Notes under the pieces: generated by a model
Told to the model about the DNA's origin: nothing
Database searches by the model: none
Seen by the model: the letters and a program-made list of their open reading frames with translations, nothing else
Made by a program: the position numbers and the translations under genes
Shown: piece after piece, positions 9,126 to 63,183 of the stretch
How the letters are laid out: each line of letters starts with the position of its first letter
Position numbering within the stretch: the first letter of the stretch is position 1
NCBI GenBank assembly: GCA_963931925.1
Contig: OZ007582.1
Span: forward strand, 32,289,230-32,353,229
Source of the DNA: Onchidella celtica
Taxonomy: Eukaryota; Mollusca; Gastropoda; Systellommatophora; Onchidiidae
Length of the DNA stretch: 64,000 nucleotides
Direction: 5' to 3'

Positions 9126-10100
9126 ATCTGTGTGTGTGTGTATGTATGTGTGGTTTACTTTAAAAATGTGCTGAGGTTTGACAGTCCTAAGGGCATGAAT
9201 CAGAAGTTATACAAAATATTCATTGTGGCACTGACTTAAAATAATTCAGATCGACCACTACTATTTTCTTCCTGGGGGAATAATAAATCGAAATTAATGA
9301 TTAAATTCAAGTGGGAACAGGTGAAACCAACTCAGCTCTTCTAGGTAATTTTCCCTTTGGACTCAACAATTTCTTTATACGTCCTGTTTCGGTCCTTGTC
9401 ATTCCAGGGGTTCTATTATGCTATAGAGCTGACTCAGCTGATTATTCAAAACATTTAAAATCAGTCTGAGTGATGCTGGTTCTCATTTAGTTCAGCTGCC
9501 TCTGCTTAGAACGACGAGAATTTTATATTAACTAGAGGAAATTTGGTATTGACGCAAAGGTTTCTACATTTTCATTAGCAGGATTGTATGTGTGACGGTC
9601 GTTACTCAAAGTTTACTTAGTCGTGTGATCTTAGCAGTGAAATGACCTGTGTGTATATTCTCTGTACAACTAGATCGAATAACTTCATTTCATTTGGCTG
9701 CCAGGAGACAAAACGTTTGTAAATCTTTCGGGTAACTTACTTTGTGTTAATGTTATTTTATTTTTTTTTATTCCGAGCTCATTGTACTTCTTTTCATGGG
9801 GTATCCGGTCAGTCAGTAAGTTTAACTTGTTGAAGGTGCTGATGTCTAAACCAGGTCTGTCAGTATTGTGTCATTCTGTTAGCTTTTTTTGGGTTTTGCC
9901 GTTTCAAAAAAGAAAAAAAAAGGAGTAGAAATAAGTTCTGTTACTGCAAAAATTAATGTTTGTTAATTCTCCTACATCGCCCTGGTCAGTACAGAACACA
10001 GACTAATAAATCAACCAGACTGGAAACACAAGCTTCGGGCTGTGTCGTTTTTTACGGAAGTTAATGAGATGCGGCCGTATAACCAACATGCCCGCCGCTC

Positions 10101-10110
10101 GGGAAATTCC
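10101..10110 (+). promoter_or_regulatory. Perfect kappaB-type motif inside the MITE
   Basis: GGGAAATTCC fits the NF-kappaB/Rel consensus GGGRNNYYCC. It lies about 930 bp upstream of the receptor start codon. Function is not shown by sequence alone. Confidence 0.4.
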
Positions 10111-10140
10111 GATTCTAGTTCATGACCTTTCGCTGTTTTA

Positions 10141-10148
10141 TGACGTCA
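10141..10148 (+). promoter_or_regulatory. Perfect CRE palindrome inside the MITE
   Basis: TGACGTCA is the full CREB/ATF palindrome, 30 bp after the kappaB-type motif and inside the same mobile insert. Confidence 0.4.
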
Positions 10149-11038
10149 CACAATGGGATCATCCAGTCTGGGTATTTTATTAGTCTGTGGTACAGAACCT
10201 AGAGGGAGAACTTCCCACCTTCCCGCTTCATCAAAAGAATCGTCCTCTGTTAGGCCAGATGCCACAACAATCATAAACTGCAGGGGTCGGCTCTAAGGTG
10301 GATGTTCATGTTAGGTAATCTTTTTATGTCATCGTTACTTGGATGGATGTATTGGACACATGAAAGCAAGCTAAGTCGTGGCAGATACTGTCAGGTTCAT
10401 CCCATTTTTACTTAATAGAAGGCTCGTCCCAATTTTGATTTTAAAAAAAAAAAACCTGTGGAGTTGCAGTAGGACTTGGAGCAAAGTTAAAATGTTGCAA
10501 AAGGTTCTATGTTGTAAACTCTCGCATCATACACAAGCAATGACAGATTTCCAATTCTTTTGTCTTTTGTTGTGTGTTACTTTATTGTTTACATCTAACG
10601 TGTTGCTTTGCACCATATAACCCCCTTCTACTTTTTCTCCATATTTTGCCGCTCATTCTCAATCACAGCTGTTCCAGCCATTGTTCTTGGTTTTATAATC
10701 TGGCAGCTCAACAGTAAAATAGTGTAAGACTTAAATTTAAAAATCTTTTGTCCAAATTGAACTAAAGTTATGAGTTATTTTGGACAATCCAAATGGGTCA
10801 TGATATTGCTTGTATGTATACAGATTTTATTTTGGATTTAAGGTCTCGATTCCATTTATCATTCATTGGACAAAGATATTGACAACGCAATGTTATACGA
10901 ACTCCTTTGCCTTAAATAAAAAACAATATTAAATATCTGTGACAGAAATGACATTATCTATTCAATATTCAAGTTACATATTTCTAATGACTTTGGTGTT
11001 GTCACGTATAAGAATTTCCTTATTTCACATCAGGTATT

Positions 11039-13127
11039 ATGAATAGACTTTCTGTCACTCTGGTACTGGTTCTGCAGACAGTTGGAACTCATGGGGCGGT
11101 TTATCCAACATGTTCTCCAGTGGCACTGGGTGAACCTTTCATTCAAACATGCTCTGGACAGTGGACAAAAGAAATAGAGTTCATATTCTTAAATTTGTTG
11201 TTGTCACGTTCTGATCATTCTTTATGTCCATGGTAGTTCTTTTTTATATATATAATATTCACAACGTTTCAGTTTCAAAATATTCTTTTCAGATGTTCCA
11301 TTCTTTGATGTACGAAAGTTAATACGTAAGTGCATTTCCTTATTTAGGACGTTGTCGTTTAAAGCTAACGAGGTCAAAGATATGTAAACACATACGTTTA
11401 CAGAGACGATTGCAATGTTTGAGTTTCACATTTACATTTTACTGAATTTGTTTTTTCTATCAATTAAATCCTTTCATAGATATTTACAATGGCAATTCCA
11501 TAACCTCACGGACGGCAGTGTCAACGGAGTGGCTACATGTTTCAGGGGTCGAGGATGTCGTCCTGTGACAGGTTACAATGCTACGATGAGTTTGACCTTA
11601 TCACACTTCAGCAGCAATCTTTTTATACACGCCATTAAACTGAGCCACAGAAACTTGACTTTCAATTGCTTCGCGGTGAAACAAAAAATGTTTATCCCAG
11701 GAGTTGTAAAGAAGTGTAGACTAGACGTTTTCAACAGAACAGATAATACATCATGTCAAGCCACGCCGCTACCAGGTCATGGAACTTCAATCTCTTGTAT
11801 TGTGCCATTCGTACCTGACGATTTCCATGTCACATGCAGAATAGAAAGTTTCTCACCCATGAACACTAACGGGACACAACAAGTCGTAGAATATTCCCAA
11901 AAGAACGATTCAGCTAACACACAAGCGGTGAATTGTTCTGTAGCACATTTTCCAAAACCACCGGGCACCTACAAGTACACGGCTCAAGTATTTTATGTAA
12001 CGGAGAAACAACTAACACCAATTAGTAAACTGTTTGAATTTGAGAATATTATCAAACCACATGATGCCAATGTCAGGCTTGAAGTGACCTTTCCAGATGA
12101 CGAAAACAGTGTTGTTTTTAAATGTATCGCTCAGGGCTATCTGTCTGTTCCAAACTTTCAATGGTACCTGGGGAATTCCCCAGACATGACGAGCGGTGAA
12201 ACTGAAATATGTATTGGTAATTCGCCTAACACCGGTCAGAATTCTTATACAAGGAAATCCAAATTTTCATTAAGGGTTTTAAGCAACAAGGCCAGTGTTT
12301 CTTGCGAGGTAAAAAGTACGTCCGCGACAATAAGAAAAATTATTAATGTATCTGACCTAATGCTGGGTAGTGAGACATTGGGTTCTGATTCATTGGTTTT
12401 TAAAGAAGAAAAAAACTCCGTGATTGAAAATATAACAGTAGTTGAAGAGGAAAGTGCCCAAATCTCCTGCCATATTATATCAGAGGACCCGAGTATAACT
12501 ACCATCATTGTGCAATGTTGGAGTCAGGACAAACGAGAATTATTTCATATATCAAGGCATCATAAATTATATCCCAATTCCTTAATATCGTTTAATATCC
12601 AGGGTAGGTCTGTATTTAACAACAGTGAATGTTACTGTGTAGCCAAAAATGAGAATCACTATAACATCTCGATGTTAACATTGAAAATAGTCGTATCTTC
12701 AGTCCAAGCTCCACGCACCAAACTGGGAGAACAGACGCAAAATGATGTAGAGGGACAATGGAACTTAACAACCCAAATAGTGAATTCAACAGAATGTCAA
12801 GACCAGATGAATTTCACAGATGTTGATGGAAGGAATTGTCCTGATTTGTTGTATATTCTAGCCGGAACGTTCGCCAACGCTTTGATCTCAGCTCTCATCG
12901 GCTGGGGATGTGCTCATCTTCGACCACAACGTTTACACATAGAACCTGCAGATACAGATACCCTGGAACGCGTCCAACAGCGTTTGCGGCTGCCATGTGC
13001 ACCGAGGCATTTCCTACACGAGGAGACACAAGAGGAGACACCAGAAGCTGATTTCATGCACTCAGAAGGAGTACCATATGAGGAACACAACTTAAGTGGG
13101 GCACATATTTCATGTTCTGAATGTTGA
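11039..13127 (+). CDS. Ig-like single-pass transmembrane receptor, 589 aa
   Basis: Two exons are inferred: 11039-11160 and 11480-13127. Exon 1 gives a signal peptide (residues 1-19, MNRLSVTLVLVLQTVGTHG) and the first strand of an Ig-like domain. The junction (weak donor ACA|GTGGAC, acceptor TTTCATAG) keeps frame, and the decayed copy at 43.9-44.5 kb has a donor and acceptor in the same phase. The extracellular part shows about four cysteine-paired Ig-like or fibronectin-like modules at roughly residues 21-118, 119-231, 232-332 and 350-447, with many N-glycosylation sequons. A stalk leads to a transmembrane helix (about 496-518) and a 70-residue acidic, tyrosine-poor tail. No kinase, TIR or clear ITIM/ITAM is seen. 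I do not recognise the family; it resembles the polymorphic membrane receptors of snail immune loci only in general layout. It converges on the FREP gene downstream. Its ligand is unknown. Confidence 0.75.
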
Positions 13128-13850
13128 AGGCCAAGCCGCCCGTTTTCTACAAAAACATCCTCTAAGGGGACTAACTAGAGGGATGAGGGGCGGAGCCCCG
13201 ACATACGAACACTCGTAAAGCTGAGTTCTTGCAGTATCCTTATAGTATACCTTAATTGGAACTCCACCTATGCAATCAGCCGCAATCTTAGACAAGGATG
13301 AACTACGTCCGTCCAAAAATATAGCACTCAGTAGATGTACATTTGATGTTACAGATTTGGCTTTCTAATTTGTATTTCTTTGCTTAGTATATCTCTACTT
13401 TATGGAAGAAAGAACACTTCTACACTTCCATTGAGAAATCGTATGCCCATATTAGCTAGTGACAACTCAAAGAAAAATGTTTTAAATTAATTTGTTACTA
13501 CTGAAAGAGTCCAGGACTCAGTGTGACGCTATGTGAAATTCTGTTGTACTGTTGCTTCAGTGTGAGGCTATGTGAAATTATTGGGTAATGTTGTAGATTT
13601 GCGTCAGTGTGAGACTATGTAAAGCTATTGGTAATGTGGCGGATTTAATTCAGTGTCAGTGTATGGTACAATTATTTGTAATGTTATACAATTGCTTTCA
13701 CGTGAGGCCATGCATAATGTTATAGATATACTTCAGTTTGAGGCCATGCAAATTGTACAGTTCTTCAGCATGTTGCAAGATAGAATTACTGGTATGTAAT
13801 GTTGTGAAGCATCTTGTGTAGAACTATGATATTAAATGTAGAATTTATTT
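13128..13850. other. 3' flank of receptor gene, degenerate repeats
   Basis: No gene seen. From about 13500 there are degenerate repeats of a 'cagtgtgaggctatgtgaaattattgg' theme that lead into the 37-bp minisatellite. I found no clear AATAAA signal close to the stop codon. Confidence 0.5.
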
Positions 13851-13851
13851 T

Positions 13852-14703
13852 GGTACTGACACTTCATGTGGTGCTACAGACAATTATTGGTACTGACAGT
13901 TCATGTGGTGCTACATATAATTATTGGTACTGACACTTCATATGGTGCTATATACAATTATTGGTACTGACACTTAATGTGGTGCTACATAATAATTATT
14001 GGTACTGACATGTCATGTGGTGTTACATAATAATTATTGGTACTGTCATTTCATGTGGTGCTACATATAATTATTGGTACTGACATTTCTTGTGGTGCTA
14101 CATATAATTATTGGTACTGACACTTCATATGGTGCTACATACTATTTATGGTGCTGACATTTCATGTGGTGCTACATATAATTATTGCGTACTGACACTT
14201 CATGTGGTGTTACATACAGTTATGGCTACTGACACTTCATGTGGTGCTACACATAATTATTGGTACTGACACTTCATATGCTGCTACATACAATTTATGG
14301 TGCTGACAGTTCATGAGGTGCTACATATAATTATTGCGTACTGACACTTCATGTGGTGTTACATATAATTATTGGTACTGACACTTCATGTGGTGCTACA
14401 TACAATTATTGGTACTGACACTTCATGTGGTGCTGCATATAATTATTGGTACTGACACTTCATGTGGTGCTACATATAATTATTGGTACTGACACTTCAT
14501 GTGGTGCTACATACAATTATTGCTACTGACACTTCATGTGGAGCTACATATAATTATTGGTACTGACACTTCATGTGGAGCTACATATAATTATTGGTAC
14601 TGGCACTTCATGTGGTGCTACATACAATTATTGCTACTGACACTTCATGTGGTGCTACATATAATTATTGGTACTGACACTTCATGTGGTGCTGCATACA
14701 AAT
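13852..14703. repeat. 37-bp minisatellite, about 23 copies
   Basis: Tandem units reading 'ggtactgacacttcatgtgg' followed by 'tgctacatataattatt'. Most are 37 bp with point differences. Diverged relatives continue to about 15200. Confidence 0.95.
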
Positions 14704-17690: not shown

Positions 17691-17699
17691 CACACATAC

Positions 17700-18130: not shown

Positions 18131-19055
18131 CTAGTTTCTGCTTCTGAACTTCATTTCGGTGGCGGAGAACGTGGCAGAGAAACTTTGTCCAATTTCATAC
18201 CACCAGATGGCGGACGCTTTACCGCTGATGCCCCAAACACCATTCAGGTTGACGTTAGTCCCGCGATTGAACCACCAGCCTGAATTGCAGAGTTTTCCCT
18301 CATCTGAGGAAATTAACATTAGATGGGGTGAAATAAGACTGATAAGAGTTGAGTTTAGGTGAGTTTGATACAAGATGGATCAGATGCGATAAACAACATA
18401 AGAGATACATAAATAAGATAATTTAAGACATTTTTTTATCCCCACAAAAAAAAAAAAAAAAAAAAAAGCACATGCATTTTTGAACATAATCTATTCCCTA
18501 AGCCTGTGACTCACGTGTAAATCATGGACACCACATTTATCTCTATGAGTTTTGTCATCATAACACAACAGGGCTGTTATCAGTTGGGAGAATTGTCAGA
18601 TAAAGAAAGTGTGGTTCAGTCATGATGTAGGTGTGAGAACTTCTGAGAAGAAACAGATGCGAGAGGTCTATAGAGGGCAATTACTGACATGTATGACACA
18701 TTGGTGGTGTAAGAGCACATTATGTTGTTAAAGTTCAAATAGACTCCATAATTGAACCAAAGGGAGTTTGCCACAATTGCTGGCCTGTGTGGCATCCAGG
18801 TTATCTCTCCAAAATCTACCCCCACCCCCACCCCCCACCAGCCACCCCCACCCCCCCCCCCCCGATATTTCAGAATTTCCCCCGGATAGTTTGGGATACC
18901 CCGTAATAACAATCCAAAAAATCTGAAATATTGGGGTTTATCCCCAGAAATATCTAATATCTCCCGGGATTAAAACGGGATGAGGTCTATTTGGTAATAA
19001 GTAAGCCGCATCCTATTCAATTTCCCTATTATGAATTATTACATCCCAGCTATTT

Positions 19056-19127
<72 letters not shown>

Positions 19128-22100
19128 GGGAGGTAGTTTCTCCCATCCCCCTTTCATCTTTTTTACTTCGTGTTCCTTTCCACCTACAATCTTTCTCTGC
19201 CACACATGTATACTCGTATGCAAACATTTAATGTCATTTTTATGCTGGGAAATAGTGAGAAACCGTCAAAGTATAGAACACATTATCGCTCTTGAGATGG
19301 GGTGGGGGGGGGGGGGGAAGACACACAGAGAGAGACAGAGAGAAAGAGAAAGAGAGAGACGGGGGTAGGGAGGGAGCAACGGACACAAAGAAATAAAGAG
19401 AGCAGAAACATGATTTAATACATGACCTGTGACAGTGTTAATTATGAGCAACGTTGTGTATTTTGGAGTAAAGGCAACAAACTTGGCACAGTTATAATAC
19501 ATTAACATACAATGATTTGAGCTGTAGTAATTAGTTCTCATGTTGACCCTGACAAAATAAACATCTATTTTCTCTTTACTATCATTAATATAATCATTGG
19601 AAAGATAAACACCATAAAAGCCTTTCCGGCAACGGTAGAGAGCTGCAGCGTTGGGGGGGGGGGGGGGGGGGATGGGGGTGGGAGCAAAAGCACCGTTTAA
19701 AATTGACGTAAGAGTATTATTCTATCTTTGTTAAAACACACTCTACAGTTGTTTCCTAGCGGCAAGAAAATGACAGGAGGGCCCCTTACACCTGACCTTT
19801 TGACACTGTCTCCCCCTTCCCCTCCCTCCAATAAAAACGTGTAAACCGACAAACATTTAACCTGTGAAACTTTAACACACAGTTAAACAAAAGTCCCGGG
19901 TGAATGGAATTAAAATTAAAATTAAAAAATGAACTAGGGAGTACGAATTATAATAAAGAAAATAATGTTCTAGCATATCCCAGGTTATCCGAGGGGGTTA
20001 AATTAGGATGGGGGCTATTCCAGGATGTCACACCGCATAAGTTCCATTGAGATAAGTGACAAGGTTCATTCGAACGTTATCAACTGGCGCGTTTATACAA
20101 CCGAGGTGTATTGCTCTGTGAGAGAAACAACAAACATCAGAAAAACACAAATTCACAGAAAACGTAGCTAATCTGGTCAGTTGTGTAAATCATAAATAGT
20201 TATAGATTAGTCTGAACTCACTACCGGTAGGTGATAGAAGCTTTTAAGCCACTATGTTTCGCGTCTGTCAGATAGCTGTCCAAATCGGTATTACAAGACG
20301 TGAAAGTAAGCAGAGTTTATGTTTTCTGGTGAGGTACTGAGAAATGTTTGCCACTGTATTTGTTATGCTAGACGACCCAGACGAGGAATTTTTAAAAAAA
20401 GGGAGTAAACCGACGAGAAAGAGGTGGATAATGGCAGTTACAAAATGGAGGATGTAGAGATCATACCTTGCCAAGGTCCATGGTCGTAGGTAGAGAAGGC
20501 AGCCCCGTTATTGAAAGACATGCCACTGCCTCTGTCGTCATAACCTTCTACTGTAAGAGTGTAGGTATCGCCTGGTCCAATAGAAAACGTCGGGTAGATA
20601 CGGGTATATCGGGTGCCGTTCGAGGCCAACACCATGTCCACACGGAGCTCATGATTTTTTCCACTGGCATCCAACAGACGTTTGATGTGTTTTAGTCCTA
20701 GCCAGTGCTCACCATTAATGGAGCCAAACCCATTTTCGTACTTACTGAAATTTCGGTAAAAATCCACGTTGCCCTCAAATCTTTTCTGGAAAATTGTCCA
20801 TGTTTCACTTGGGCTTTTGACATCACACAAAACCTTTAATGGTCCAAGATTGTCGGGGGCAAGTATGACCTCATGTTGACCTACAGGTAAAGTTACATCA
20901 CTGCAACTTTTGGAGCACACACTTTTGTTGCGAAGAAGAGCTAATTTCTCAGTGGCATCTCGTGCCAACTTTTCTGCTTTACCAAGACGATTTTCTAAGT
21001 CACTTTTGGTCTGGTTCAGGCGATTTTCTAAATCAGCTTTAGCGTGGTATATCTCTGCAAGACGGTCCACGAGCTGCTGAGGGCTCGGCTCCTCCCAGGT
21101 GACATATTTACGCCGGGACAGAAAAATTGGAAGTCCATCTGCATCATTTCCTGAAATTTCACAAATGTACACACCTGCTTGATCCACTCCGGGGATGATC
21201 CACCCCAAAGCAATGAAACCGTCATTAGAATCCAGAGATCCCTCAACAAAATCACTATCAGCTCCGGGTTTGACGGAAATATTGTGTCCAGTCTTAAGGT
21301 CTACCAGTAATTGCTCGGCCCCTTCATGTATTCTCAATATGGACAGGGAGCCCAGTATTGACATATTCAGAGCATTTGAATGACTGACCGAACAATTTAT
21401 GTCCAGCATTGGAGACAGGCCTACGGAAATTGTTTCTGGCATGATGAAGAATAAAAAGTCTTCTTTTTGCACCTGAAGTTTCAGTTCTTGTTTGGTGGAT
21501 GCTGACACGAGGTCTGAGTCCACACCGTAAGCTTCACATTTGTAATCCCCGTCAAGTTTGGTCTGAGCATTATACCAGTGGATCCGTAAGAAGCTAAAGA
21601 AAGATCCAGATGACGAAATCTCTCCACTCACTTCGGCATCCTGGACATGTGACACGGATCCATTCTGCTCGCCACAAGCATACAGAGAAGCAAGAGTCTG
21701 CCACTGGCCATTGACCAGCCTGAAAATGACTAAACTATTCAGATGAGTCAAATTGGTAGGGCTAAGACTACCAACATCGCAATGTAGATCAATCTCTTGT
21801 GGGTCTTCGTTGTAATAGAACGTGACTTGGCCATCTGGGAAATATAAAGGGTTAATTGATGAATGGACAGTTGTTTGCGGGGATGTACAGGTGGATGGAT
21901 GGAAGGATGAACGACGGGCGGGTTTATGGATAATTTGATGGATGGATCATGGATAGATTGATGGATGGCTGGATGGATGCACGAACCACAGTCCTGAAAA
22001 CCTATTCCTTTACTTTGGCCACCTGGCATTCTACTGGGACATCACAACCGGGATCAGCCAGGGGTCAAGGCACCTGCGATAGGCCTCGCTCAGCACGGAC

Positions 22101-24459
22101 TATTAAATGTTAGATTGGGTACTTTTATAAGAGATAAGATAAGAATCACTTTATTATCCCATGAGCGGAATACTCTTTCACAGAACCTTTAAGAGCACAT
22201 ACATAATAGGCATATATTACGCATCATTACATAAACATAACACAACTAAAAAAAACTCTATAGCAAACATACAAGAAGTGACATGGCAGGGAACCTTAGT
22301 AAAATGTGGCAGATATGTAGCTAAAGTGTCAGTTTGGGACAGATTGCGGGGAGCAAAAACGATCCCCAGTGTCTTTCTCTGTTTACCTTTATGTGCATTA
22401 TTCTGTTACTTGTGGATGATCCTGAAACTTGATGAAACAGGAGATGATGGCTGTCATTGACGATGGATATGTATTTCTTTACACAAGCAGTTTTGTTTTA
22501 TGTTCCACCGCCTTGCAATGCAACCGCAGCCGTCAGAATTAGTGGTGGGCAATGATTTGTCTTTTGGTAAGTCGAATCGATTCGAATCTGTGGGTTGTGT
22601 GATTCCTTTGATTCGAATCATTCGAATCACACGAAGAGCTAGATGAGGCCCTTGGCATGAGCGAAACATCATTCAAGTTAGTCAGCTTGTTAGTAACGAC
22701 AGGAAGTGAGTTATAAATAAAAATGATCTGAATCAATCGGCAAGCTACCCACTTCGAGAGACAGGCCAACAGACTAGGCTGAGATCATAGCAAAATGTTA
22801 TTTATTGACAGAAGCTTGCCATTCCATAGCCCATTACGAGCAAGGGAAGATAGGGTGCGAGCCGGCCACAGCACTTACTCAACTTGCTGGCGTTTTTTGT
22901 GTTTGTGTGTGTGTGTGGGGGGGGGGGGGGAGGGGGGTTAATCAATCTATTTGTTTATTCACCAAAATTAAAAATAAATTATCTGCACAGGAAGAGGGAG
23001 GAAGTAAATTACGGATCCCAGCCCGCATGTACGTCAGTCCGAGGTCAATTTGGATAGGAGTTCCGTGTTCTTCGCTGTATGTTTGTCCCAATAAATCCAC
23101 ACTTGACCTTCCAATCAAGTGCATGTTGGCATTGTATCGTCTTTGTCCATTATCACATCGTCGTGAGAACCTCTGGGAAATAAAATCTAATCTACCTTTT
23201 GTTGGTGAAAGATGGCAACATCGGAGGAAGTAACATATTATAGAACAGGAATAGAAGGAAAACATTGAAGCGAATGACAGAATGGGATGTTTTATCCGTT
23301 TTTTTTTTAAAGTCAGCTGTATTCGGTTTGTTTTTGGTTTTTTATAGTTTGTTATTGTTAATTTTTTTGCTCGAAAACAAATGAAATGGGATTAGTTTTT
23401 AATGGCGCGATGCAGAATTGGATACATGAGAAACCTTTCGACTTGGAGGTCAAAAACAATTATAGTAGTGGACTTGTGTGTGAAACAGAAAACGAGATTT
23501 CGATGATTCTGGAAAAATGGCACTACAATATGTCTGCGCACTTGATTGATTTTGACGTCTGCGGTAACATTTACTCTGGATACGTGAAGGGCAGTGCTTT
23601 GGTCACCCACCCCACACTTGTACACTTCCTCTTCCATACCTATCATGCTGCATCACACAGGCACTGGCGAATGGCTTCCCTGGACGACTCTAAATGCCAA
23701 CTCTTCTGTCTGTAAAGGAGACGTCAAATCGGCGCTCATCAGAAAACATCGTTGGTTTCCATTCTGCGCCCGGGCAACGAATATTTTTCTGGGCCCACAT
23801 TAATCTGTTGGGCATGTGACGCCTGGTGATGGATTGGCCAATGTGAGGACATCTGTTTAACAAGCCAGCGACATGAAGTTTGAGACGTACGGTATTTCCT
23901 CTGACAAGTCCTCGAGTTCCATGAGTTAGAGCCACTGTCCGGGCTTCCGTCTCGAGGCGATTCCGTAAATGTAACCGTCTTATCTGACGTTCTTGTGCAA
24001 GTGTTGTTATGCGTGATTGACCGGCCCTGAGGCTGTCAATGGTGATTCCTGTCGTCCAAACTCGCTGGTTCAACCTCACTATGGTGGACTGGCGACGATT
24101 AAAATGCCTTGCAGCTTCCCTGGTTGCCATTCGACTCCTGAGCATTCAAACCGCTTGCCATCGTTCTTGTGATGGCCATCGTGGCATGATAAAAAGTCTG
24201 AAAATTTTACTTTTGATGAAAACTGAAACTAGCGTTTTGCTACGAGAAACTTGCATAATGTGTGTACCAAATTTCACAGTTATACAATGTCATTTCACGT
24301 CAGATTTTGATCATCATCTGTAAAAAAAATTTCTAATCTTGTAAATATCTGTAAATCCACCTGTAAATATTCAACATTCTAGAACTACGTACCTGCTCGG
24401 TGAATGAAACAGAACAAAAGCACAAGCAGGTTCAGATATGTCAACTTTGACGGAGACAT
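18131..24459 (-). CDS. Fibrinogen-related protein FREP1, 3 exons, 535 aa
   Basis: Exons on the minus strand: 24459-24393 (signal peptide MSPSKLTYLNLLVLLFCFIHRA), 21834-20467 and 18303-18131. Both introns are phase 1 with GTACGT/TTCCCAG and GTATGA/TTCCTCAG ends, and the joined frame is open. Residues 24-145 form an Ig-like domain (Cys41 and Cys122, extra Cys76); about 150-262 a second one (Cys170, Cys247). About 273-323 is a coiled coil with an 11-residue NQTK-type repeat, and 328-535 a fibrinogen domain (SC..DV, VLCDV, WTIFQKRF, GEHWLGL, GWWF, NLNGVW). Known FREPs are secreted snail lectins that bind parasite or microbial surfaces and are upregulated on infection. Oddity: the C-terminal fibrinogen disulfide is incomplete (one Cys before GWWF, its partner replaced). 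Convergent with the receptor gene. Confidence 0.92.
18304..20466 (-). other. FREP1 intron 2 contents
   Basis: Holds a poly-A run (about 18447), C-rich runs (about 18816-18863), a GTT array (19058-19127), a poly-G and GA tract (about 19300-19370), a second poly-G (about 19652) and several 'cccggga(t)' palindromic motifs. It aligns in parts with the FREP2 intron but lacks its Helitron and TIR element. Confidence 0.7.
19058..19127. repeat. (GTT)n microsatellite in FREP1 intron
   Basis: About 23 pure GTT units. Poly-C, poly-V and poly-T open frames here are artefacts. Confidence 0.96.
21855..21992. repeat. GGAT-type degenerate repeat next to FREP1 exon 2
   Basis: Interrupted GGATGGAT/GATTGATGG units in intron 1 just upstream of exon 2. 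It is conserved in FREP2 at about 55200-55322 and gives a false N-terminal extension to the open frames. Confidence 0.85.
22524..22800. repeat. Palindrome-rich TTCGAA repeat, duplicated
   Basis: Begins GTGGTGGGCAATGATTTG and contains CGAATCGATTCGAATC (a perfect 16-bp palindrome) and GATTCGAATCATTCGAATC. It is nearly identical to 61699-61965 in the second unit. It may be a MITE or a SINE-like remnant; family not assigned. Confidence 0.45.
23392..24186 (-). pseudogene. Tc1/mariner-like transposase remnant in FREP1 intron 1
   Basis: From a start at 24186 the frame reads MPRWPSQERWQAV, hits a TGA, then continues with a paired-type DNA-binding region (REAARHFNRRQSTIVRLNQR) and a catalytic start (TMFSDERRFDVSF, first Asp). 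After 23690 the frame shifts; a piece around 23640-23480 (QVRRHIVVPFFQNHRN) still resembles the family, but the second catalytic Asp and the C-terminal part are not recognisable. The same remnant in unit 2 was therefore present before that part was duplicated. Confidence 0.75.
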
Positions 24460-43825: not shown

Positions 43826-44020
43826 ACGTGGGGCTTTGCACCATACAATCTTACCTGTTGATCCACAGTGTCATCCAATGGCGGTGGGCGAACCTTTCAG
43901 TCAAACATACTCTGGACGGCAGTGTAGTGTTTGTTATTGGCATAGTTCTTGTTGTAATTCTTTTTTTGATCACTTTTTATATTTGTATGTGATTTGTTAA
44001 TCAGACAGTAATGTAAGTGA

Positions 44021-44038
44021 TGTCTCTCTCTCTCTCTC

Positions 44039-44113
<75 letters not shown>

Positions 44114-44145
44114 CCCCCCCCCCCTCTCTCTCTTTCTATCTGTCT
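44021..44145. repeat. (CT)n microsatellite
   Basis: Imperfect CT tract with a short poly-C run, in the pseudogene intron. Confidence 0.93.
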
Positions 44146-44225
44146 CACTCTCTCAATTCCAATACGGACAGATATACATTTTGAAATAGTTGTATTTTAT
44201 GTGATTTACGTATTATTCTACATAT

Positions 44226-44352
44226 GGTGCTTCATCATCATCATCATTGCCTTTCTCACCCCGGATCGGGGTATAGGCCACCAACAAACACTTTCCATCC
44301 CTCTCTATCATGGGCCAGTCTCTTTACATTATTCCAAGTCTTTCCGCTTCAC
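44226..44352 (+). mobile_element. SINE- or RTE-like 3' fragment
   Basis: CATCATCATCATTGCC followed by 'gggtataggccaccaac' and 'gggccagtctcttt' resembles a widespread molluscan repeat. Assigned from general resemblance only. Confidence 0.35.
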
Positions 44353-46244
44353 ATATGGTGCTTAGGAGATTATAAATGGTATTATTTTGTACGTAAGACG
44401 GTCTGACTTAAGTCTGCCAAGATTAGGAGTGTGTAAACACAATATTGTTACAGAGATAAGGGCAAAGTGCTTATTGCAATTTTGATCTGATATTCACTTT
44501 CCTACGACAGGTATGTAGAGTGGCCACTTCTTTATCTCAAGGATGGTACTACCAAGACAGTGGCAACATGTTTTAGGTATGGAAAAAGCTATGAGTTATG
44601 AGACCACTGATTTCAGCATTACATTCAGCACAGACAGTTTCTTATTGCCTTTCGTGAGCAACCTTCGCGTTCCTGTCATTAAACCGAGCCACAGAAATTT
44701 GATTCTAATTGGCGAATTATGAAATTAAACAATGACTTTCAGATAATACGAAAGTGTGGTTTAGTCGTTTTCAACAGAACAGATAACACATCATGTCAAG
44801 CCACGCCGTTACCAAGTCACGGAACTTCAATCTCATGTATTGTGCCATTCGTACCAGACAATTTCCCTGTCACATGCAGAATGGAAAGTTTCTCATCCAT
44901 GAACATTGGCGGTACAAAACAAGTGGTAGATCTAATGCTGGGCAGTGAGATATTGGGTCCTGATTCATTGGTTTTCAAAGATGAAAGAAACACCGTGATT
45001 GAAAATAATTATAACAATAGTTCAAGAGGAAAGCGCACTAATCTCCTGCCTTGTTACATCAGAGGGTCCGAGCATAACAAACATCATCGTACAATGTTGG
45101 AGTCAGGACAAACATAAATTAGTTGATATATACAAACACTCAATTTTTAGTAACTTTTTATATCCGCGGCACGTGTGAATTGAATAATAGTGAATGGGTG
45201 AGTTTGATATAACAAAGAAGATGGATCAATTTGAATCAAAGGGTAAAAACAATGTCGTAACGACAACAGAAGTAATTGCTCAGTCAACAAATAGACAGAG
45301 TTTTTCTGGAGAAGAAATTTCACATGCCAGAACGAATTTGTCCATGCATTCCACCCATAATTTAATTGGTGCATTTATTAGTATACTTCTGATTGTCGTT
45401 TTATGTATTCTGTAGGTAAGGAGAAGTATAACATTTACGAATGTTCGAGAGGACAGTCATCAAAGCACCGATTATGTGTACAAATATGTAACATCAAACA
45501 GTAGTCAGTGGGCGTCCAAACAGAAGTTCCAACTTTGAGAGAACCGCCAGCTATAGAGGATAATGTCCGTTCTCAGCCTTTGGATGGCGCCTGATTTGAA
45601 TTGAGAACTGCTGGAAATATTACAGCACATCACTCATATGGTTCTAATACTGAATCTCTATACATTACACGGAGACAGGTCGGGACTGATGAGGAAAGTC
45701 ATCAAGCAGAACCTTTAGAGGCAACATCTCTACTGGCAGCACCATATGCATCTTCTGCCATCTCCAATACTTCTCTCATTATTTCAGCCGTGTCATCTGA
45801 AGAAATTTACCATTACGAATCTCCTCGTCGTACATGGACGGAATCTTCTAACGGGAGTCAACAATTGTGTACACGTGACAACTAAGTCCTGTTGTGATGA
45901 TCGATGCATTGCAAGAAAGCTATTTGACACAGTATCCCTATACACCACCAACTGATATACACCACGAACTGAGATGTCTTTGGTGCTGATTATAGTGACA
46001 CTTATTGACACGATCGTGTTTTTCAGACAGCCCTTTTGTGTTCATGACATTATAGAAAGAATCTGCAGTACATCAGAACAAACCGTGATCTCTTCAAAAT
46101 AGTAACCGTGTGGTGATTATTCCAAGTTTGGTCAAATATTTATATGGAATGGTTTCATTTTACTTGACGTCACACGATTTGCAAACCTTTAAATTAATGT
46201 TTAGATTTCTAGTGGTACAAACAATTCGGACGAAGTGCTGCATG

Positions 46245-47160: not shown

Positions 47161-48901
47161 CTAGTTTCTGCCCCTGATCTTCATTTCTGTGGCGGAGAAC
47201 GTAACAGAGTAACTGTTTCCAATTTCCTTCCACCAGATGCCGGACATATTACCGCTGACACCCCAGACACCATTCAGGTTGGCGCGAGTCCCGCCATAGA
47301 ACCACCAGCCTGCACTGTCTTTTCTTTGGTTTGCCATATCTGAGGAAATTAACATCCGATGGGGTGTGATAAAATTGATATATGTGATGTGATAAGATGA
47401 GATAGCATGAGATAAGATCAGACCAGAAAAGGTGACATAATTCATGAGATGAGATGAGACAAATAATATAAAAGATAAATAAGATAAGTTAAAATTTTCA
47501 TTGATCCCCACAGAAATTAAAGGACATGAAGTTTCGCACACATCCACTTCTTAAGTCTGTGACTCAAGTCTAACTCAAAGTAGCTCCGAGTAAAAATATA
47601 AATTTGTCTATGAACAAATTTACGTCTATGAATTCTGTCTTCATAACACAACAAGTATTAGTTGGTAGAATTGTCAGATAAAGAAAGTGAGGTGCAGTCA
47701 CGATGTAGATGTAAGAACTTCTGATGAGGAAAGGATGTGAAAGGTTTAAACAAGGCATTTAAAGAGAGCTATAACACATTGGCAGTATGATCCACGTGTT
47801 GATGGACTCCACTACTGAACCAGATGAAGTTTGTCACAATTGCTCCCATCCCCAGATTATCCCCTCAAAATCTATATCCCTCGCCCCGATATCCCCGGGT
47901 AATCTAGGATATTCTTGAATAATCCGCGAATAATCTGGAATTTTATGGTATATTCTAGAACATCCTCCTTTATTGCTTTGTATTCCCCGGGATTAAAATA
48001 GGAGGGGGAATACTTGCCAGTTGGAATCAGCAGCCTATTTCAACTCCCAGGCCTTCCCCACTATGATTTATTGCACAACTATATTTTTTGTTTCAAAGGA
48101 TACCCTTTTTCGTCCTTTTCTTCGTATTCCTTTCCATCCTCAATACACCGCACACAAATACACACGCATACACGCACACATCTATTTATCTATATTAATA
48201 AAAGTGAAACTTTACGACAATTGCAGCGCGCCTTTCGCTACTCCTCTGTTAATGCTGATTCGGTGGCCCTCAGATATTGTACTAGGAAAGAAAAGAGTCT
48301 GGAATTGGGAGATCGACGCTGCAGGGCCAAAAGTACAGATTTGTGTTTTCAATATGCCTAGGCAAATATTATAATATTTCTTTTCCATTAACGCATGACG
48401 TTATCACTTCCTGCGATGTGTTCACTGGTTTGAATGGTGAGATTGAGTTGGACTATCAAGTATGAAACTTTGTGTTTCTCAATGTGCTAGGAAAAAGAAA
48501 GTGTCTGGAATTGGGAGATTGACGCTGCAGGGCCAAAAGTACAGGTTTGTGTTTTAATTATGCCTAGGAAAATATTATAATATTTCTTTTCCATTAACAC
48601 ATGACGTTATCACTTCCTGCGATGTGTTCACTAACGAAACAAACTAACCCGTGCGCAAATCATAGCCATTTGACGGATGTTGGCGGAACGCGTAGGACGT
48701 CAACGCGCAAAGGGAAAGCAGTAAAACGTATCTAAAAACAAACAAACAAAAATAAAATAAAGCTAAAGCCGTAAAGGAACAGGCAAAATGAAGCGGGCCC
48801 CAAATAAATCCATTTATCCCGGGCAGGGCCGGGAACTCAGCTAGTATATTACTAGATGACCAATTGGGCATTGCCCAGAATAAACAATAATGTGCTCCCC
48901 T

Positions 48902-51900: not shown

Positions 51901-54900
51901 TTAACTGAAACTGTTCTACTACTTTAGATTTGTGAGACCGGTGCTAAGCCTGTAGATGATTTTTTTGTGAGTTGGGGGGGGGGGGGGGCTACAAAGTTGA
52001 TATCATTTAAATTTATATATTTTTTATCAAGTTAAAATCAATTTTATCATTCAAAACTGGCCTGGCTTTCTTTATAATTAAAATTTAGTGGGAGAACAAT
52101 CACTTTAAAGCTGTGACAACTAACCTTGATGATTTAAATTCCACAGCTCAAGGAAGGACACAGGCTGTTACAGAGAGATCAACAAGGGAGGCTGGTGAAG
52201 TCACTGATTCAGACAAAGGTAGTAGTGGGCTTCTTTTTTTTTCTTAATGAGTGTATGTGTTTGTGTTGTCACTGTTGTATAAGAGTTATTAAATTATGTT
52301 GGTGTCTTGAAATCAAACATGTATAAGGTGAATATTATGCATCGTCTTTTTAAACAATTAAATTTGCTTTTTTTATTTGATGGTTGAGGTAAGATTGATG
52401 GATGCATGAGGAGAATGGTTGAAACCTTAACTCATCCTGAAAGTAAAGAGGGGTGAACAAACAGAGTTCACATCATCACACAAGTTTTAATTGTAATGAT
52501 CTGACTTTAATGTATGTATTAAATTCCTTTTTCTTTATCTTTTAAATTAACAGTTTGTTGGTTCCCGACGCTATCCGCATATGGCCCAAAGTCGCTCCAT
52601 ATGCGGATAGCATCGGGCACTGACGAGTTTTACTATTTAACTCATGTTCATTCTCATTTGTTTTCTTTCTTTAATTCAATTCGATAGATGATATGGAATC
52701 AGTGACTGGGATAGAAGATTTGCCGGAGAGAATCATACCAAGCCACACCGATGTCCCTTCTGAAGCCCCTCATGTTGGTGAGATAGAAGGACACAAACCT
52801 TGGACATGCAAACATTTTGATGGGAGACCTGATCCTGCCTTTTTACTACATTTGACACACTTGTCTGTCTGATCTTGTATTTATGCCTCAAGCAACCCAT
52901 TTTACTTTCCTCAGCAACAATAGTGTTTGCAACCTGCACGGTTGCTTACTGTATTAATCATTTTTTTGTCTTAAAATCCATAAATACCTAATTAGCATAA
53001 ATCTGAATATGGAGAAATTATCTCTATTTCATTTACATCATTATGTTTCTTGTTGTTATTGTTGTTTTCAATAAGTAGCACTGTTTGAAATTCATCCTGA
53101 TGTTTCCAGAGATTTTTAAAGTGTTTGTGTGTCTGACATGATTGTTTTCTTAAAGTAAGACTGTGCTCAAAGTAGTTGAATGTCGTATTTACATTTTTTT
53201 TTAGTGTTCCAACTTTAAAAGCCATTTTCTCAAAAACTAAATTTTAGGACTTTGTTACTTTAAAATGCCATAACTTTGGTAAAAATGAGAATTTTAGATT
53301 CAAATAAAGACAAAAACTCTCAGAAATGATCCTTCTTTAAATATATGTCATTAACTCAAAAAATGTTTTTTTCGACATATCGTGGGTTTTCTCATGCACG
53401 CACACTGTTTGTCTCGTCAAATTCTGCAAATCACAAACAGTTGTAGTTGTCGGAAGGTAGGTGGTGGAAGCTTTTGAGCCACTATATGTCGTGTCTGAAA
53501 CAGTCAGATAGCTGTCTAAAATCGGTATTACAAGACAAGAAAGTGAGCAGAGTGTATGGTCAAAAATGTTCTCTGGTAAAATACTGTCAAATGTGTAACA
53601 CCGTATTTCTGGACCTAGACGAACCAGACGAGGAAATGAAAACAAAGAGGTAAATCGATGAGAAAGAAGTAGATAATGAAAGTTACAAAATAGAGGATAT
53701 AGAGATCATACATTGCTCAGGTCCGAGGTCGTAAGTAGAGAAGGCATGTCCGCTATTGGAAGACATTCCAAGACCTCCGTCGTCATAACCTGCTACTGTA
53801 AGAGTGTAGGTATCGCCTGGTCCAATAGAAAACGTCGGGTAGATACGGGTATACCGGGTACCGTTCGAGGTCAACACCATGTCCACACGGAGCTCATGAT
53901 TATTTCCACTGGCATCCAAGAGACGTTTGATGTGTTTTAGTCCTAGCCAGTGCTCACCATTGGTGGAGCCAAACCCATTTTCGTAGTCGCTGAAATTTCG
54001 GTAAAAATCCACGCTGCCGTCAAATCTTTTCTGAAAAATTGTCCAAGTTTCATTTGGGCTTTTGACATCACACAAAACTGTTAATGGTCCAAGATTGTCG
54101 GGGGTAAGTATGACCTCATGTTGACCTACAGGTAAAGTTAGATCACTGCAACTTTTGGCGCACACACTGTTGTTGCGAAGAAGAGCTAATTTCTCTGTAG
54201 CATCTTGTGCCAACTTTTCTGCTTTGCCAAGACGATTTTCTAAGTAAGTTTTTGTTTGGTTCAGCCGATTTTCTAAGTCAGTTTTGGTCTGGTTCAGGCG
54301 ATTTTGTAAGTCAGTTTTGGTCTGGTTCAGGCGATTTTGTAAGTCAGTTTTGGTCTGGTTCAGGCGATTTTCTAAGTCAGCTTTAGCATGGTATACCTCT
54401 GCAAGACGGTCCACGAGCTCCTGTGGGCTCGGCTCCTCCCAGGTGACATTTTTAAGCCGGGACAGAAAAATTGGAAGTCCATCTGCATCATTTCCTGAAA
54501 TTTCACAAATGTACACACCTGCGTGATCCACCCCTGGGATGCTCCATCCCAAGGCAATGAAACCTTCATTAGAATCTAGAGATCCCACAACAAAATCACT
54601 ATCAGCTCCGGGTTTGACGGAAATATCGTGTCCAGACTTAAGGTCTACCAGTAATTGCTCGACCCCTTCATGTATTCTCAATATGGACAGGGAGCCCAGT
54701 ATTGACATATTCAGAGCATCTGAATGACTGACGGAACAATTTATGTCCAGCATTGGAGACAGGCCTACGGAAATTGTTTCTGGCATGATGAAGAATAAAA
54801 AGTCTTCTTTTTGCACCTGAAGTTTCAGTTCTTGTTTGGTGGATGCTGACACGAGGTCTGAGTCCACACCGTAAGCTTCACATTTGTAATCCCCGTCAAG

Positions 54901-55178
54901 TTTGGTCTGAGCATTATGCCAGTGGATCCGTAAGAAGCTAAAGAAAGATCCAGATGACGAAATCTCTCCACTCACTTCGGCATCCTGGACATGTGACACG
55001 GATCCATTCTGCTCGCCACAAGCATACAGAGAAGCAAGAGTCTGCCACTGGCCACTGACCAGCCTGGAAATGACTAAACTATTCAGATGAGTCAAATTGG
55101 TAGGGCTAAGACTACCAACATCGCAATGTAGATCAATCTCTTGTGGGTCTTCGTTGTAATAGAACGTGACTTGGCCAT
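47161..55178 (-). CDS. Fibrinogen-related protein FREP2, 3' exons, signal exon missing
   Basis: Exons on the minus strand: 55178-53712 and 47339-47161, giving 547 residues plus the junction codon. Same splice ends and phase as FREP1 (acceptor TTCCCAG; donor GTATGA; acceptor TTCCTCAG). Domains: two Ig-like domains, coiled coil, fibrinogen domain. The large exon is exactly 99 bp longer than in FREP1, because the coiled coil has three more 11-residue NRLNQTKTDL-type units. The last exon reads DSAGWWFYGGTRANLNGVWG, so both cysteines of the usual C-terminal fibrinogen disulfide are absent. The first exon should lie upstream of 63184, where the duplication is cut by an LTR element, so it is missing or beyond the window. 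Expression therefore depends on sequence not seen here. Confidence 0.88.
48189..48844 (+). mobile_element. Non-autonomous Helitron, 656 bp
   Basis: Starts TCTATATTAATAAAAG and ends with a GC hairpin (CCCGG..CCGGG at about 48818-48833) followed by AACTCAGCTAG. It sits between A (48188) and T (48845), as Helitrons do, with no target duplication. No Rep/helicase is encoded. It contains two diverged copies of a block of about 150 bp (about 48279-48431 and 48489-48633). Confidence 0.85.
51535..51565. repeat. (ATAAG)n pentanucleotide, SINE-like tail
   Basis: AAGAT-type repeats followed by TTTTATTCGTCCTTGTACAAGG. Similar 'taagataagaatcactttattatccc' tails at about 22132 and 55476 suggest a dispersed short element. 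Confidence 0.5.
52564..52617. other. Strong hairpin, 21-bp arms
   Basis: Arms CCCGACGCTATCCGCATATGG (52564-52584) and its reverse complement with one mismatch (52597-52617), 12-nt loop. Possibly a mini-element end or a foldback; function unknown. Confidence 0.75.
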
Positions 55179-60100: not shown

Positions 60101-61264
60101 GTTTCTTTGATCAATAATTTGAAAGTCAACTTGTAAATGTTTCCCTCTGCTCTGCCACTGTACAGGCAAAGTTATCTCTCCTACCGGTTGCATGATATGT
60201 CCGGAATATGTTTTCAAGACTTTAGTAGGCTTATCCAGATCTTCTTTGTGATCTTTCTTGATCCCTTTCCAGTCCTCCAAAGTGATTATATTGCATCTTG
60301 CTCCTGTGTCAATTCTGAATTGTACAGGTTTTCCTTTGACTGTGATGATTTCTTTCCACTTGTCTTTGCTTGTTAAGTTGTCTTGAATCGTGCATACCTC
60401 CAACAGGTTCAGTTGATCGATCATTTCTTCATGATCCTCATTATCTGTGTCGGAGCCTTCTTGCATCTCCAACTGATGCACTTTTTGTTGCAGTCTGCTT
60501 CTACACACTGCTCGCCAATGTCCTACTTTCTTACAGTATGTGCATACTGACTTGCTTGCCGGACATGTTTGCTGCCGATGCATCGGTGATTTTCCACAGC
60601 GCCCACATTGACTATTGGTGTTCATGTTCATGTTATAGCTAGGTCTTCTAGATTTGGTTTTGTGGTCTGGTTTTCTCCCTTCTCTGATCCGTGCGACTTC
60701 AACTTGTTTCTCTCGTAGTTGGTCCTTTTGACAGACCCTCAGTTGTAGCTGCTGCTTGGATTGTTCGTGTTGTTGACCCAATTCCATGGCTTTCTGCAGC
60801 GTCAAGGCTTCTCCTCTATCTAGCAATTTTTCTTGCAGTTTATGGTCATTGACACCATCAATTATGCAGTCAACCAGAATATCCTCCGTGTCTCCATATT
60901 CACAGTCTAGTAAAATCACCCTTAGATCTTTTACGAAACATGCGAATGTTTCATTCCCTTGTTTCCTGTTCTTGAGACGGTACCTCGCCAGCCTTTTGTT
61001 TTTCTTTGGTCGAGCATATTCAATGAATTTCTTAAACACTGTGTCAACTTTGTTACGTTCCTATTCCGTAAACGTAAATGTTTTGTAGATTTCTCTACCT
61101 TCCTCGTCTAGCCAAGTGCCAATCCATCCACACTTTTGTTCATCTGTGGCTGAATGCAGTGGACCATGGAAAACAAATTCGCAGTGCTCTTTGAATCTCA
61201 GAATTTCTTGATACAAGTCTGCTGCTTGAAAATCAATATTCGGTTGAGGAAAATTGAAGTTCAT
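57188..61264 (-). pseudogene. Gag-Pol of element 4 with one in-frame stop
   Basis: From the ATG at 61264 the frame reads 67 codons of Gag, meets one TAG (61061-61063) and continues in the same frame to 57188. Order: Gag capsid region, knuckles (CGRCGKSPMHRQQTC, CTYCKKVGHWRAVC), protease (FRIDTGARCN), RT (FSKLDAKNGFMQIKL, MMDDILIAG), RNase H (IHCDASSTGLGAVL, FTDNKSLE), integrase zinc finger (HSSHLG..CEKCAQK) and DDE core (D in ISVDIFEF, D in TTDCGSQF, E in NGMAERS). This is canonical Ty3/gypsy order. The C-terminal end is altered by a 44-bp tandem duplication. Apart from the stop it looks intact, so it is young or slightly damaged. Confidence 0.9.
57235..57322. repeat. 44-bp tandem duplication at end of element 4 Pol
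   Basis: Two adjacent units starting GAACTCGACAACCGTGGG. As 44 is not a multiple of three, the duplication shifts the C-terminal reading frame. Confidence 0.9.
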
Positions 61265-61451
61265 CTTGGCTCTATTAGTGTTAGGTTGTTTAGGCTTAAG
61301 TATTCGAACGAGTTTCTAGATCTAGATCTCTACTACACAGTCTATGGATTCGAAGCAAAAGGGTGCAGTTCTGCCAGAGAAGATACTAGATCTATGTCAG
61401 TCTAGGTCTATAACCATGTCTCTGTAGTGTGCAGGTTCGTTTCTGACACCA

Positions 61452-61624
61452 TGTAATGTATTTGTGACAATACATTGAGTGTTTACACAAAAGATCATTC
61501 AGAAGCATGTGTTGCTTAGGATGCAGCCATCTTTATTATGCGACCTTGAACTCAGGTTCTTTTTTTACAGTGACATGCCAGGTTGCATTGTACAAGGTTG
61601 GCATATAACCCGCCATATAATACA
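61452..61624 (-). repeat. 5' LTR of element 4
   Basis: 173 bp; on the minus strand starts TGTATTATATGGCGGG and ends TACATTACA. Confidence 0.88.
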
Positions 61625-63183
61625 GATATGTATTTCTTTACACAAGCAGTTTTGTTTTATGTTCCATCGCCTTGCAATGCAACCACAGCCGTCAGAATTA
61701 GTGGTGGGCAATGATTTGTCTTTTGGTAAGTCGAATCGATTCGAATCTGTGGGTTTTGTGATTCCTTTGATTCGAATCATTCGAATCACATGAAGAGCTA
61801 GATGAGGCCCTTAGCATGAGCGAAACATCATTCGATTTAGTCAGCTTGCTAGTAACGACAGGAAGTGAGTTATAAATAAAAATGATCTGAATCAATCGGC
61901 AAGCTAGCCACGTCGAGAGACAGGCCAACAGACTAGGCTGAGATCATAGCAAAATGTGATTTATTGACAGAAGCTTGCCATTCCATAGCCCATTACGAGC
62001 AAGGGAAGATAGGGTGCAAGCCGGCCGCAGCACCTACTTAACTTGCTGGCGTTTTGTGTGTGTGTGTGGGGGGGGGGGGGGTAATCAATCTATTTGTTTA
62101 TTCACCAAAATTAAAAATAAATTATCTGCATAGGAAGAGGGAGGAAGCAAATTATGGATCCCAGCCCGCATGTACGTCAGTCCGAGGTAAATTTGGATAG
62201 AATTTCCGTGTTCTTCGCTGTATGTTTGTCCCAGTAAATCCACACTTGACCTTCCAATCAAGTGCATGTTGCCATTGTATCGTCTTTGTCCATGACCACA
62301 TCGTCGTGAGAACCTCTGGGAAATAAAGTCTAATCTACCTTTTGTTGGTGAAGGATGGCAACATCGGAGGAAGTAACACATTATAAAAAAGGAATAGAAG
62401 GAAAACATTGAAGCGAATGACAGAATGGGATGTTTTATACGTTTTATTTTTAAAGTCAGCTGTAATCGGTTTGTTTTTGGTTTTTTTGTAGTTTGTTTTT
62501 GTTAATTTTTTTGCTCGAAAACAAATGAAATGGGATTAGTTTTTAATGGCGCGATGCAAAATTGGATACATGAGAAAACCTTTCGACATGGAGGTCAAAA
62601 ACAATTATAGTAGTGGACTTGTGTGTGAAACAGAAAACGAGATTTCGATGATTCTGGAAAAATGGCACTACAATATGTCTGAGCACTTGATTCATGTTGA
62701 CGTCTGCGGTAACATTCATTCTGGATACGTGAAGGGCAGTGCTTTGATCACCCACCCCACACTTGTACACGTCCTCCTCCATACCTATCATGCTGCATCA
62801 CACAGGCACTGGAGAATTGCTTCCCTGGAAGACTCTAAACGCGAACTCTTCTGTCTGTAAAGGAGACATCAAATCGGCGCTCATCAGAAAACATCGTTGG
62901 TTTCCATTCTGCACCCGGGCAACGAATATTTTGCTGGGCCCAGATTAATCTTTTGGGCATGTGACGCCTAGTGATGGATTGACCAATGTGGGGATATCTG
63001 TTCAACAAGCCAGCGACATGAAGTTTGAGACGTACGGTATTTCCTCTGACAAGTCCTCGAGTTCCATGAGTTAGAGCCACTGTCCGGGCCTCCGTCTCGG
63101 GGCGATTCCTTAAATGTAACCGTCTTATTTGACGTTCTTGTGCAAGTGTTGTTATGCGTGATTCACCGGCCCCTGAGGCTGTT
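61625..63183. repeat. Duplicated FREP intron 1 segment
   Basis: Nearly identical to about 22470-24040 (palindromic TTCGAA block, GT/G run, Tc1-like remnant). It stops abruptly at 63183 inside the transposase remnant. Confidence 0.9.
62543..63183 (-). pseudogene. Tc1/mariner-like transposase remnant, second copy
   Basis: Same decayed frame as at 23392-24186 (ESRITTLAQERQIRRLHLRN.., TMFSDERRFDVSF), truncated at its N-terminal side by the junction with an LTR element. Confidence 0.75.

Follow-up and report, generated by a model that had tools for sequence, protein, structure and literature searches.

Does a receptor gene that lies face to face with a lectin gene, in an arrangement present twice, work together with that lectin, or are both genes neighbours by descent? 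This question is raised by a stretch of 64,000 nucleotides of the gastropod Onchidella celtica (contig OZ007582.1; hereafter the window, C16:32289230-32353229 in a 43-contig genome assembly of 1.14 Gb), in which a plus-strand gene for an Ig-like transmembrane receptor converges with a minus-strand gene for a FREP, a lectin with immunoglobulin superfamily (IgSF) and fibrinogen domains. Few variable immune lectins of invertebrates have been studied as thoroughly as FREPs. An earlier note on this DNA had interpreted the layout as a duplicated cassette and a linked recognition locus. The reading that we favour, with a probability of about three in four, is that the window covers part of a gastropod FREP cluster in which a two-gene unit is repeated in tandem, that the copies later diverged by birth and death with copying of exons between units, and that the closeness of receptor and FREP is an inherited neighbourhood.

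A two-gene unit in tandem

Comparison of the window with itself confirms the direct duplication. Copy A (9159-24040) and copy B (42602-63186) have in common 11 pieces of at least 60 bp, alike in order and orientation, with E-values from 2e-9 (a 61-bp piece) to 0; the best value obtained for A versus B in 20 first-order Markov shuffles was 0.027. FREP intron 2 and noncoding stretches near the receptor are about 74-83% identical, the 5′ side of the FREP gene 93-97%. The convergent layout described in the earlier note, receptor on the plus strand and FREP on the minus strand, was borne out in A. A FREP gene is present in both halves, as had been proposed, and modelling adds a C-terminal fibrinogen exon to each and a signal-peptide exon to that of A. 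The receptor gene expected in the second half turned out to be a relic.

Copies A and B are two of at least five units in the same orientation, located between 32.298 and 32.438 Mb of C16. Units C, D and E, to the right of the window, keep the order and strands of A and B, and in each unit a plus-strand Ig-like single-pass receptor converges with a minus-strand FREP with two predicted IgSF domains. The number of units is a lower bound, the left flank of the window and C16:32393230-32403229 being outside the count. The search for further pairs that had been suggested also yielded an inverted receptor/FREP pair at 31.95 Mb of C16. These data support co-duplication of receptor and FREP.

The earlier note had considered that such a duplication might come from the assembly, and exceptionally divergent haplotypes, which could have been placed in a row without being collapsed, are described for a snail immune cluster in a passage of PMC7494358. 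However, intron 2 differs by 14-35% between pairs of units, and their insertions are not the same, which makes an artefact unlikely. Five units with private insertions were found in an assembly of 43 contigs, and the site of one inserted element (56410-61624) is filled in B and empty in A. We consider this explanation highly improbable.

That element is one of several long terminal repeat (LTR) retrotransposons situated between and inside the copies: 26870-33948 (LTRs 99.6% identical), 35349-42476 (100%) and 56410-61624 (98.8%), with a further fragment at 63185-64000. What the earlier note took for shared flanking repeats are the retrotransposons at 26870-33948 and 35349-42476, which are younger than the duplication and lie outside the cassette. 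LTRs were rejected as a cassette component, being those of retrotransposons with nearly identical ends.

Most receptor copies are broken. What is left of receptor B (43857..45885, plus strand) comprises a remnant of exon 1, a broken exon 2 (44511-45196) and a membrane/tail module, here called type L (about 45250-45885). The 478 bases in which A has its start codon and the larger part of its signal exon are gone, and a further 465 bases are missing inside exon 2; as unit C keeps both stretches, these gaps are losses in B. With no signal exon, and with in-frame stops and frameshifts, receptor B was rejected as a working gene. No homology links its membrane/tail part to that of receptor A; at the DNA level (72%) this part resembles those of two other receptors, L039 and L040. 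In unit C, the receptor has an intact signal exon and four length changes that are no multiples of three, and the FREP has lost one base in IgSF1. Of the receptor, unit D retains only the membrane/tail part, and its FREP is interrupted by a stop and a frameshift. In unit E, the receptor lacks everything before residue 194 and has two stops and a frameshift; FREP exon 2 is open there. An intact receptor frame is hence found in one of the five tandem units (A), and FREP exon 2 is open in three (A, B, E) and broken in C and D, numbers too small for a test; the open FREP exons of B and E therefore stand beside no intact receptor. In the 31.95-Mb pair, the FREP spans two frames, and the adjacent receptor match ends at residue 222, a tail match following 1.4 kb on. 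The notion that both genes were kept together through duplication applies to the DNA (five tandem units and one inverted pair) and less so to the genes.

The sequences show a unit of a receptor and a convergent FREP in at least five copies of the same orientation, which then diverged by birth and death while retrotransposons entered between and inside them.

Divergence of FREP exons and introns

FREP exon 2, on the minus strand, corresponds to 20467..21834 in A (IgSF1, IgSF2, coiled coil and the N-terminal two thirds of the fibrinogen domain; splice sites modelled) and to 53712..55178 in B (open frame; Pfam Fibrinogen_C, E 2.8e-24). Silent divergence between A and B has a change point at 21236 (support 21302-21218), inside IgSF2. 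It is of 4.1% (94/2271) on the 5′ side and of 21.3% (194/910) on the 3′ side (likelihood-ratio statistic 206.8, 0 of 300 permutations), and IgSF1 does not contain a single synonymous change in 81 sites.

When fourfold sites of exon 2 are set against intron 2, the difference is of 1.2% (5′ part) versus 27.6% for A-B, of 6-8% versus 35.4% for B-C and of 5-6% versus 26.1% for D-E. The five units hence form a mosaic: exon 2 is alike within A/B/C and within D/E, whereas intron 2 differs by 20-35% within A/B/C. The last 170 bases of exon 2 break this pattern (A-B 21%, A-D 8% and D-E 8%, on 22-29 fourfold sites). Intron 1, with 3.2% difference between A and B, is nearly as similar as the exon. Its stretch 22466..24040 in A (minus strand) is 95.5% identical to 61625..63186 in B (minus strand), where homology to A stops at the LTR-element fragment; the stretch in A overlaps an open reading frame (ORF) with a weak Tc3-type transposase match (PF01498, 18.5 bits, cut-off 31.5).

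Selection on the protein cannot homogenise intron 1 and silent positions; the likeness is probably due to copying from unit to unit. The sequence pattern indicates that FREP exon 2, together with part of intron 1, was copied between units more than once, and the mechanism would be interlocus gene conversion or an equivalent recombination. Such copying would spread recognition-domain sequence over older backbones. Could unequal crossing-over alone, combined with purifying selection on exons, produce the same picture? Tandem units in the same orientation favour unequal exchange, and exon 2 is constrained (from IgSF2 on, nonsynonymous is below synonymous divergence between A and B; Fisher p = 0.0013). 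Silent sites and not just amino acids are homogenised, however, the two introns of A and B contrast as described, and D, though a broken gene, has an exon 2 close to that of E. We regard crossing-over without gene conversion as unlikely.

Receptor and FREP loci in the genome

All 21 FREP loci found, some of them partial, are on C16, 18 of them within 31.22-33.93 Mb. The 39 receptor loci found are more dispersed: 22 on C16, 12 on C5, three on C15 and one each on C1 and C7. Both counts are lower bounds, as listed matches were merged by hand and scoring covered 93 of 184 and 79 of 143 candidates. A convergent receptor faces six of the 21 FREPs, the nearest at 5.3-8.8 kb; for the other 15, no receptor locus was found within 230 kb. 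Of the 39 receptor loci, ten are at most 25 kb away from a FREP, eight of these being convergent, and the other 29 have no FREP in range. Contig C5, with its 12 receptor loci, has none of the at least 125 matches to PF00147 (150 of 177 candidates scored). Nine merged receptor loci are concentrated at C5:55.15-55.25 Mb, seven of them with open frames of 487-539 residues. Independent scattering of both gene types, which the earlier note had named as speaking against its proposal, is thus largely what the loci found present.

As the units are related by duplication, the six FREPs with a nearby convergent receptor are not independent events, and the co-location on C16 is read as shared descent. 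Since most receptor copies are broken, the two genes seem neighbours by descent and not proven working partners. Their closeness would most simply be one inherited ancestral neighbourhood, and is not a proof of binding. Of the linked recognition locus that had been proposed, co-duplication is supported, and a conserved functional pairing stays a conjecture. FREP and receptor loci are also found about 230-260 kb apart on C16, at 37.76 and 38.02-38.04 Mb and at 12.70 and 12.93 Mb; these may be old units pulled apart, or chance.

A different view is that receptor A serves as a membrane partner for FREP-coated targets and that linkage was selected, in which case one receptor may serve several FREPs. 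A passage of PMC4361660 raises the possibility that snail TM1 proteins recognise SmPoMuc-FREP complexes. Receptor A is intact, and its ectodomain compared with that of L041, a receptor at 38.018 Mb, gives a ratio of nonsynonymous to synonymous rates (dN/dS) of 0.53, a pairwise value that does not isolate the branch of A. Selected pairing is difficult to reconcile with receptors broken in four of five tandem units where FREP exon 2 is open in three, with the 15 FREP loci far from any receptor and with the C5 receptors devoid of fibrinogen-domain matches. The two proteins, moreover, show no sequence relation (best E 1.5 in a two-sequence comparison), and a common origin of receptor and FREP was rejected on this result.

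Several observations weigh against an inherited neighbourhood shaped by exon copying. For all six FREPs with a receptor within 25 kb, the nearest one is convergent, although the pattern is blurred at the 31.95-Mb FREP, where two of the five receptor loci within 25 kb are non-convergent. When receptor positions on C16 were shifted circularly, only 33 of 5000 shifts reached the observed six FREPs with a receptor within 40 kb. Selected receptor-FREP linkage accordingly keeps some probability, but we hold the functional pair to be distinctly improbable. With respect to exon copying, the pair A-D is reversed: fourfold sites differ by 27% (exon 2 up to 20640) and intron 2 by 14.2%, the closest intron-2 pair of all. 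Intron 1 of A-C differs by 46-53% from that of D-E; these sequences are hardly alignable and speak neither for nor against conversion. Unequal crossing-over may have contributed part of the mosaic. The frameshift in the FREP of unit C, finally, concerns a single base within a run of G and may reflect an error in the sequence.

Predicted proteins, exchangeable tails and known systems

Receptor A consists of two plus-strand exons joined in phase into an intact frame of 589 amino acids with a single transmembrane segment. Exon 1 (11039..11160) contains the start codon, the signal peptide MNRLSVTLVLVLQTVGTHG, called by eye and hydropathy, and the beginning of the first Ig-like domain; it has counterparts in unit C and at 31.943 and 31.960 Mb of C16. 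Its phase-2 junction reads through into exon 2 (11480..13127), which contains the remaining ectodomain, the transmembrane segment LLYILAGTFANALISALIG (residues 497-515), a tail here called type S, and the stop. A passage of PMC4361660 defines TM1 proteins by one transmembrane segment, a long extracellular part and a tail over 50 residues. Receptor A agrees with this definition, with a segment of hydropathy 1.86, a tail of about 72 residues and an extracellular part of over half of the protein.

Pfam Ig matches of receptor A are below cut-off (I-set 18.8 bits versus 23.7; C2-set_2 18.8 versus 21), and receptor A alone had no match in the PDB at E 1. A profile of 13 family members matched best, among the matches listed (60 of 2273, E up to 1), the constant domain of an antibody light chain (E 0.0019, weak). 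The label "Ig-like" holds on this account, supported but not strong. The AlphaFold model of receptor A is poor (mean pLDDT 39.3): a Foldseek search with it put fibronectin-III and cytokine-receptor folds at the top (TM-scores about 0.1-0.35), a result on which we do not rely and which does not favour Ig over fibronectin III. Among the 2772 and 2860 candidates drawn from about 5.8 billion proteins, no match to receptor A was obtained at E 0.001 and 10, respectively. Judging from the dN/dS value above, the receptor family is constrained. By analogy with known families, receptor A is predicted to be a surface receptor of haemocytes or epithelium that would signal via adaptors or its own tail.

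FREP A is built from three minus-strand exons joined in phase, of 535 amino acids without stops. Exon 1 (24393..24459; donor CAG^GTACGT, phase 1) encodes the signal peptide MSPSKLTYLNLLVLLFCFIHRA, recognised by hydropathy and splice logic, and is 95% identical to an exon in unit C. Exon 3 (18131..18303) carries the C-terminal third of the fibrinogen domain and the stop, as aligned to the proteins P0001-P0005. Its open counterpart in FREP B is 47161..47339 (minus strand), which likewise holds the C-terminal third and a stop. The large ORFs imply FREPs truncated within the fibrinogen domain; this was rejected, the missing third being a separate exon. The signal exon of FREP B is not visible, and the first 5000 bases past the window are N. 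The fibrinogen domain of FREP A matches PF00147 (E 2.5e-24) and best, in the PDB, microfibril-associated glycoprotein 4 (E 2.1e-24). Its full-length relatives, 34-42% identical, include two from Candidula unifasciata and one from Bradybaena similaris.

None of the animal Ig models of Pfam matched FREP A itself. It aligns over its full length with P0002, the first domain of which scores above the V-set_CD47 threshold (21.5 versus 21 bits), and both its predicted IgSF domains contain stretches like DxGxYxC, which we take to be an Ig motif. A coiled-coil interceding region is present in both FREPs. In A it appears as a predicted helix at residues 252-303 (pLDDT of at least 50 only at 264-297) of an AlphaFold model that is otherwise useless (mean pLDDT 31.8), and in B as 11-residue repeats, three more than in A (window 54240-54345). 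The cysteine pair of the fibrinogen domain is lost in A, B, P0001 and P0002 and kept in P0003-P0005. The last fibrinogen exon is the fastest-diverging one between A and B, with one cysteine left in A and none in B; nonsynonymous divergence is there 0.271 and synonymous 0.197, a non-significant difference (p = 0.65). From what is known of the family, FREP A is predicted to be a secreted, multimerising haemolymph lectin, in which the IgSF domains would serve in recognition, the coiled coil in assembly and the fibrinogen domain in binding the ligand. Open-frame groups 25-30% like the FREP IgSF2 region, without a fibrinogen part, were met at C9:50.08-50.27, C3:1.2-2.3 and C11:16.54-16.56 Mb; they possibly represent other IgSF-lectin families.

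The receptors carry different membrane/tail modules. Type S is found in receptors A, C, D and E, in L041 and in L051 (31.941 Mb), and type L in B, L039, L040 and L052, with weaker matches in L042, L044 and L046; neither was matched in the remaining six of 12 relatives compared. L039 and L041, 20 kb apart, are 77% identical in the ectodomain and 21% in the tail, and each tail matches those of other receptors (L041 versus A 53%; L039 versus L040 69%), so the modules were exchanged. ITIM and ITAM (immunoreceptor tyrosine-based inhibitory and activation motifs) were absent from the S tails of A and L041 and the L tails of L039 and L040, and the S membrane segment contains no basic residue; of 13 receptor proteins, two have an ITIM pattern, L042 (SEYLAL) and, at the edge of the membrane segment, L046. 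The family looks like paired receptors in its layout and, unlike the vertebrate ones, lacks their signalling motifs in the tails tested. The layout resembles that of Siglec-11 and Siglec-16, whose ectodomains are kept alike by gene conversion according to PMC5701461: L039 and L041 are likewise neighbours with similar ectodomains and unrelated membrane/tail parts. One could imagine a paired-receptor-like family with one Ig ectodomain lineage and exchangeable S and L modules, partly locked to FREPs by duplication, which would read FREP-coated targets and use pseudogene units as conversion donors, but we regard this as a long shot.

Other features of the window are repeats. At 28900-32500, in the first large LTR element, the reverse transcriptase/RNase H parts lie downstream of those for gag, protease and the zinc-binding part of integrase (Pfam), unlike the usual gypsy order; Gmr1-like elements have a similar domain order. 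The second (37500-41000) is about 95% like the first over the internal part. An ORF with an integrase-core match (32.5 bits, cut-off 32.6) and then a cysteine-rich ORF without Pfam match occupy 6475-7712. Minisatellites (a 37-bp unit in about 23 copies; 63/128-bp units) lie at 13850-15709, between receptor and FREP of unit A, and similar stretches are present in C, D and E. Ten other ORFs of the window gave nothing near cut-off in Pfam, a search of Rfam gave no matches, and one of NCBIfam was likewise unproductive.

FREP clusters, gene conversion of FREPs and clusters of single-pass immune genes are already known. In Biomphalaria glabrata, 39 of 40 FREPs lie within about 5 Mb of chromosome 13, according to a section of PMC10903818 in which receptor neighbours are not mentioned. 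The FREPs described here are like those of B. glabrata in being clustered and in having a signal peptide, two predicted IgSF domains, a coiled-coil interceding region and a fibrinogen domain; they differ in that the latter is split by an intron and that its C-terminal part, as in P0001 and P0002, is without the cysteine pair of P0003-P0005. Passages of PMC7588048 and PMC10903818 describe somatic gene conversion in FREP3, and one of PMC10875847 counts gene conversion among the origins of FREP diversity. Clusters of single-pass immune genes in snails are treated in parts of PMC10875847, PMC4361660 and PMC7494358, the first including Ig-containing TM1 clusters. Like these Biomphalaria TM1 genes (GRC/PTC1, PTC2 and the Ig-containing clusters), the receptors are clustered, diverging and of one transmembrane segment with a long extracellular part; unlike them, they are linked to FREPs unit by unit. 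FREP-receptor linkage was not apparent by title or abstract opening in the open-licence literature, which does not prove its absence. Within the same limit, we met there neither a repeated FREP-receptor unit, nor exon-wise homogenisation that includes broken members, nor exchange of S and L tails.

The array offers a natural series for measuring gene conversion of a recognition exon, with the diverged introns as the reference. One intact candidate receptor lies beside an intact FREP, which makes them a directly testable pair, and the switching of tails among similar receptors provides an invertebrate comparison for paired receptors.

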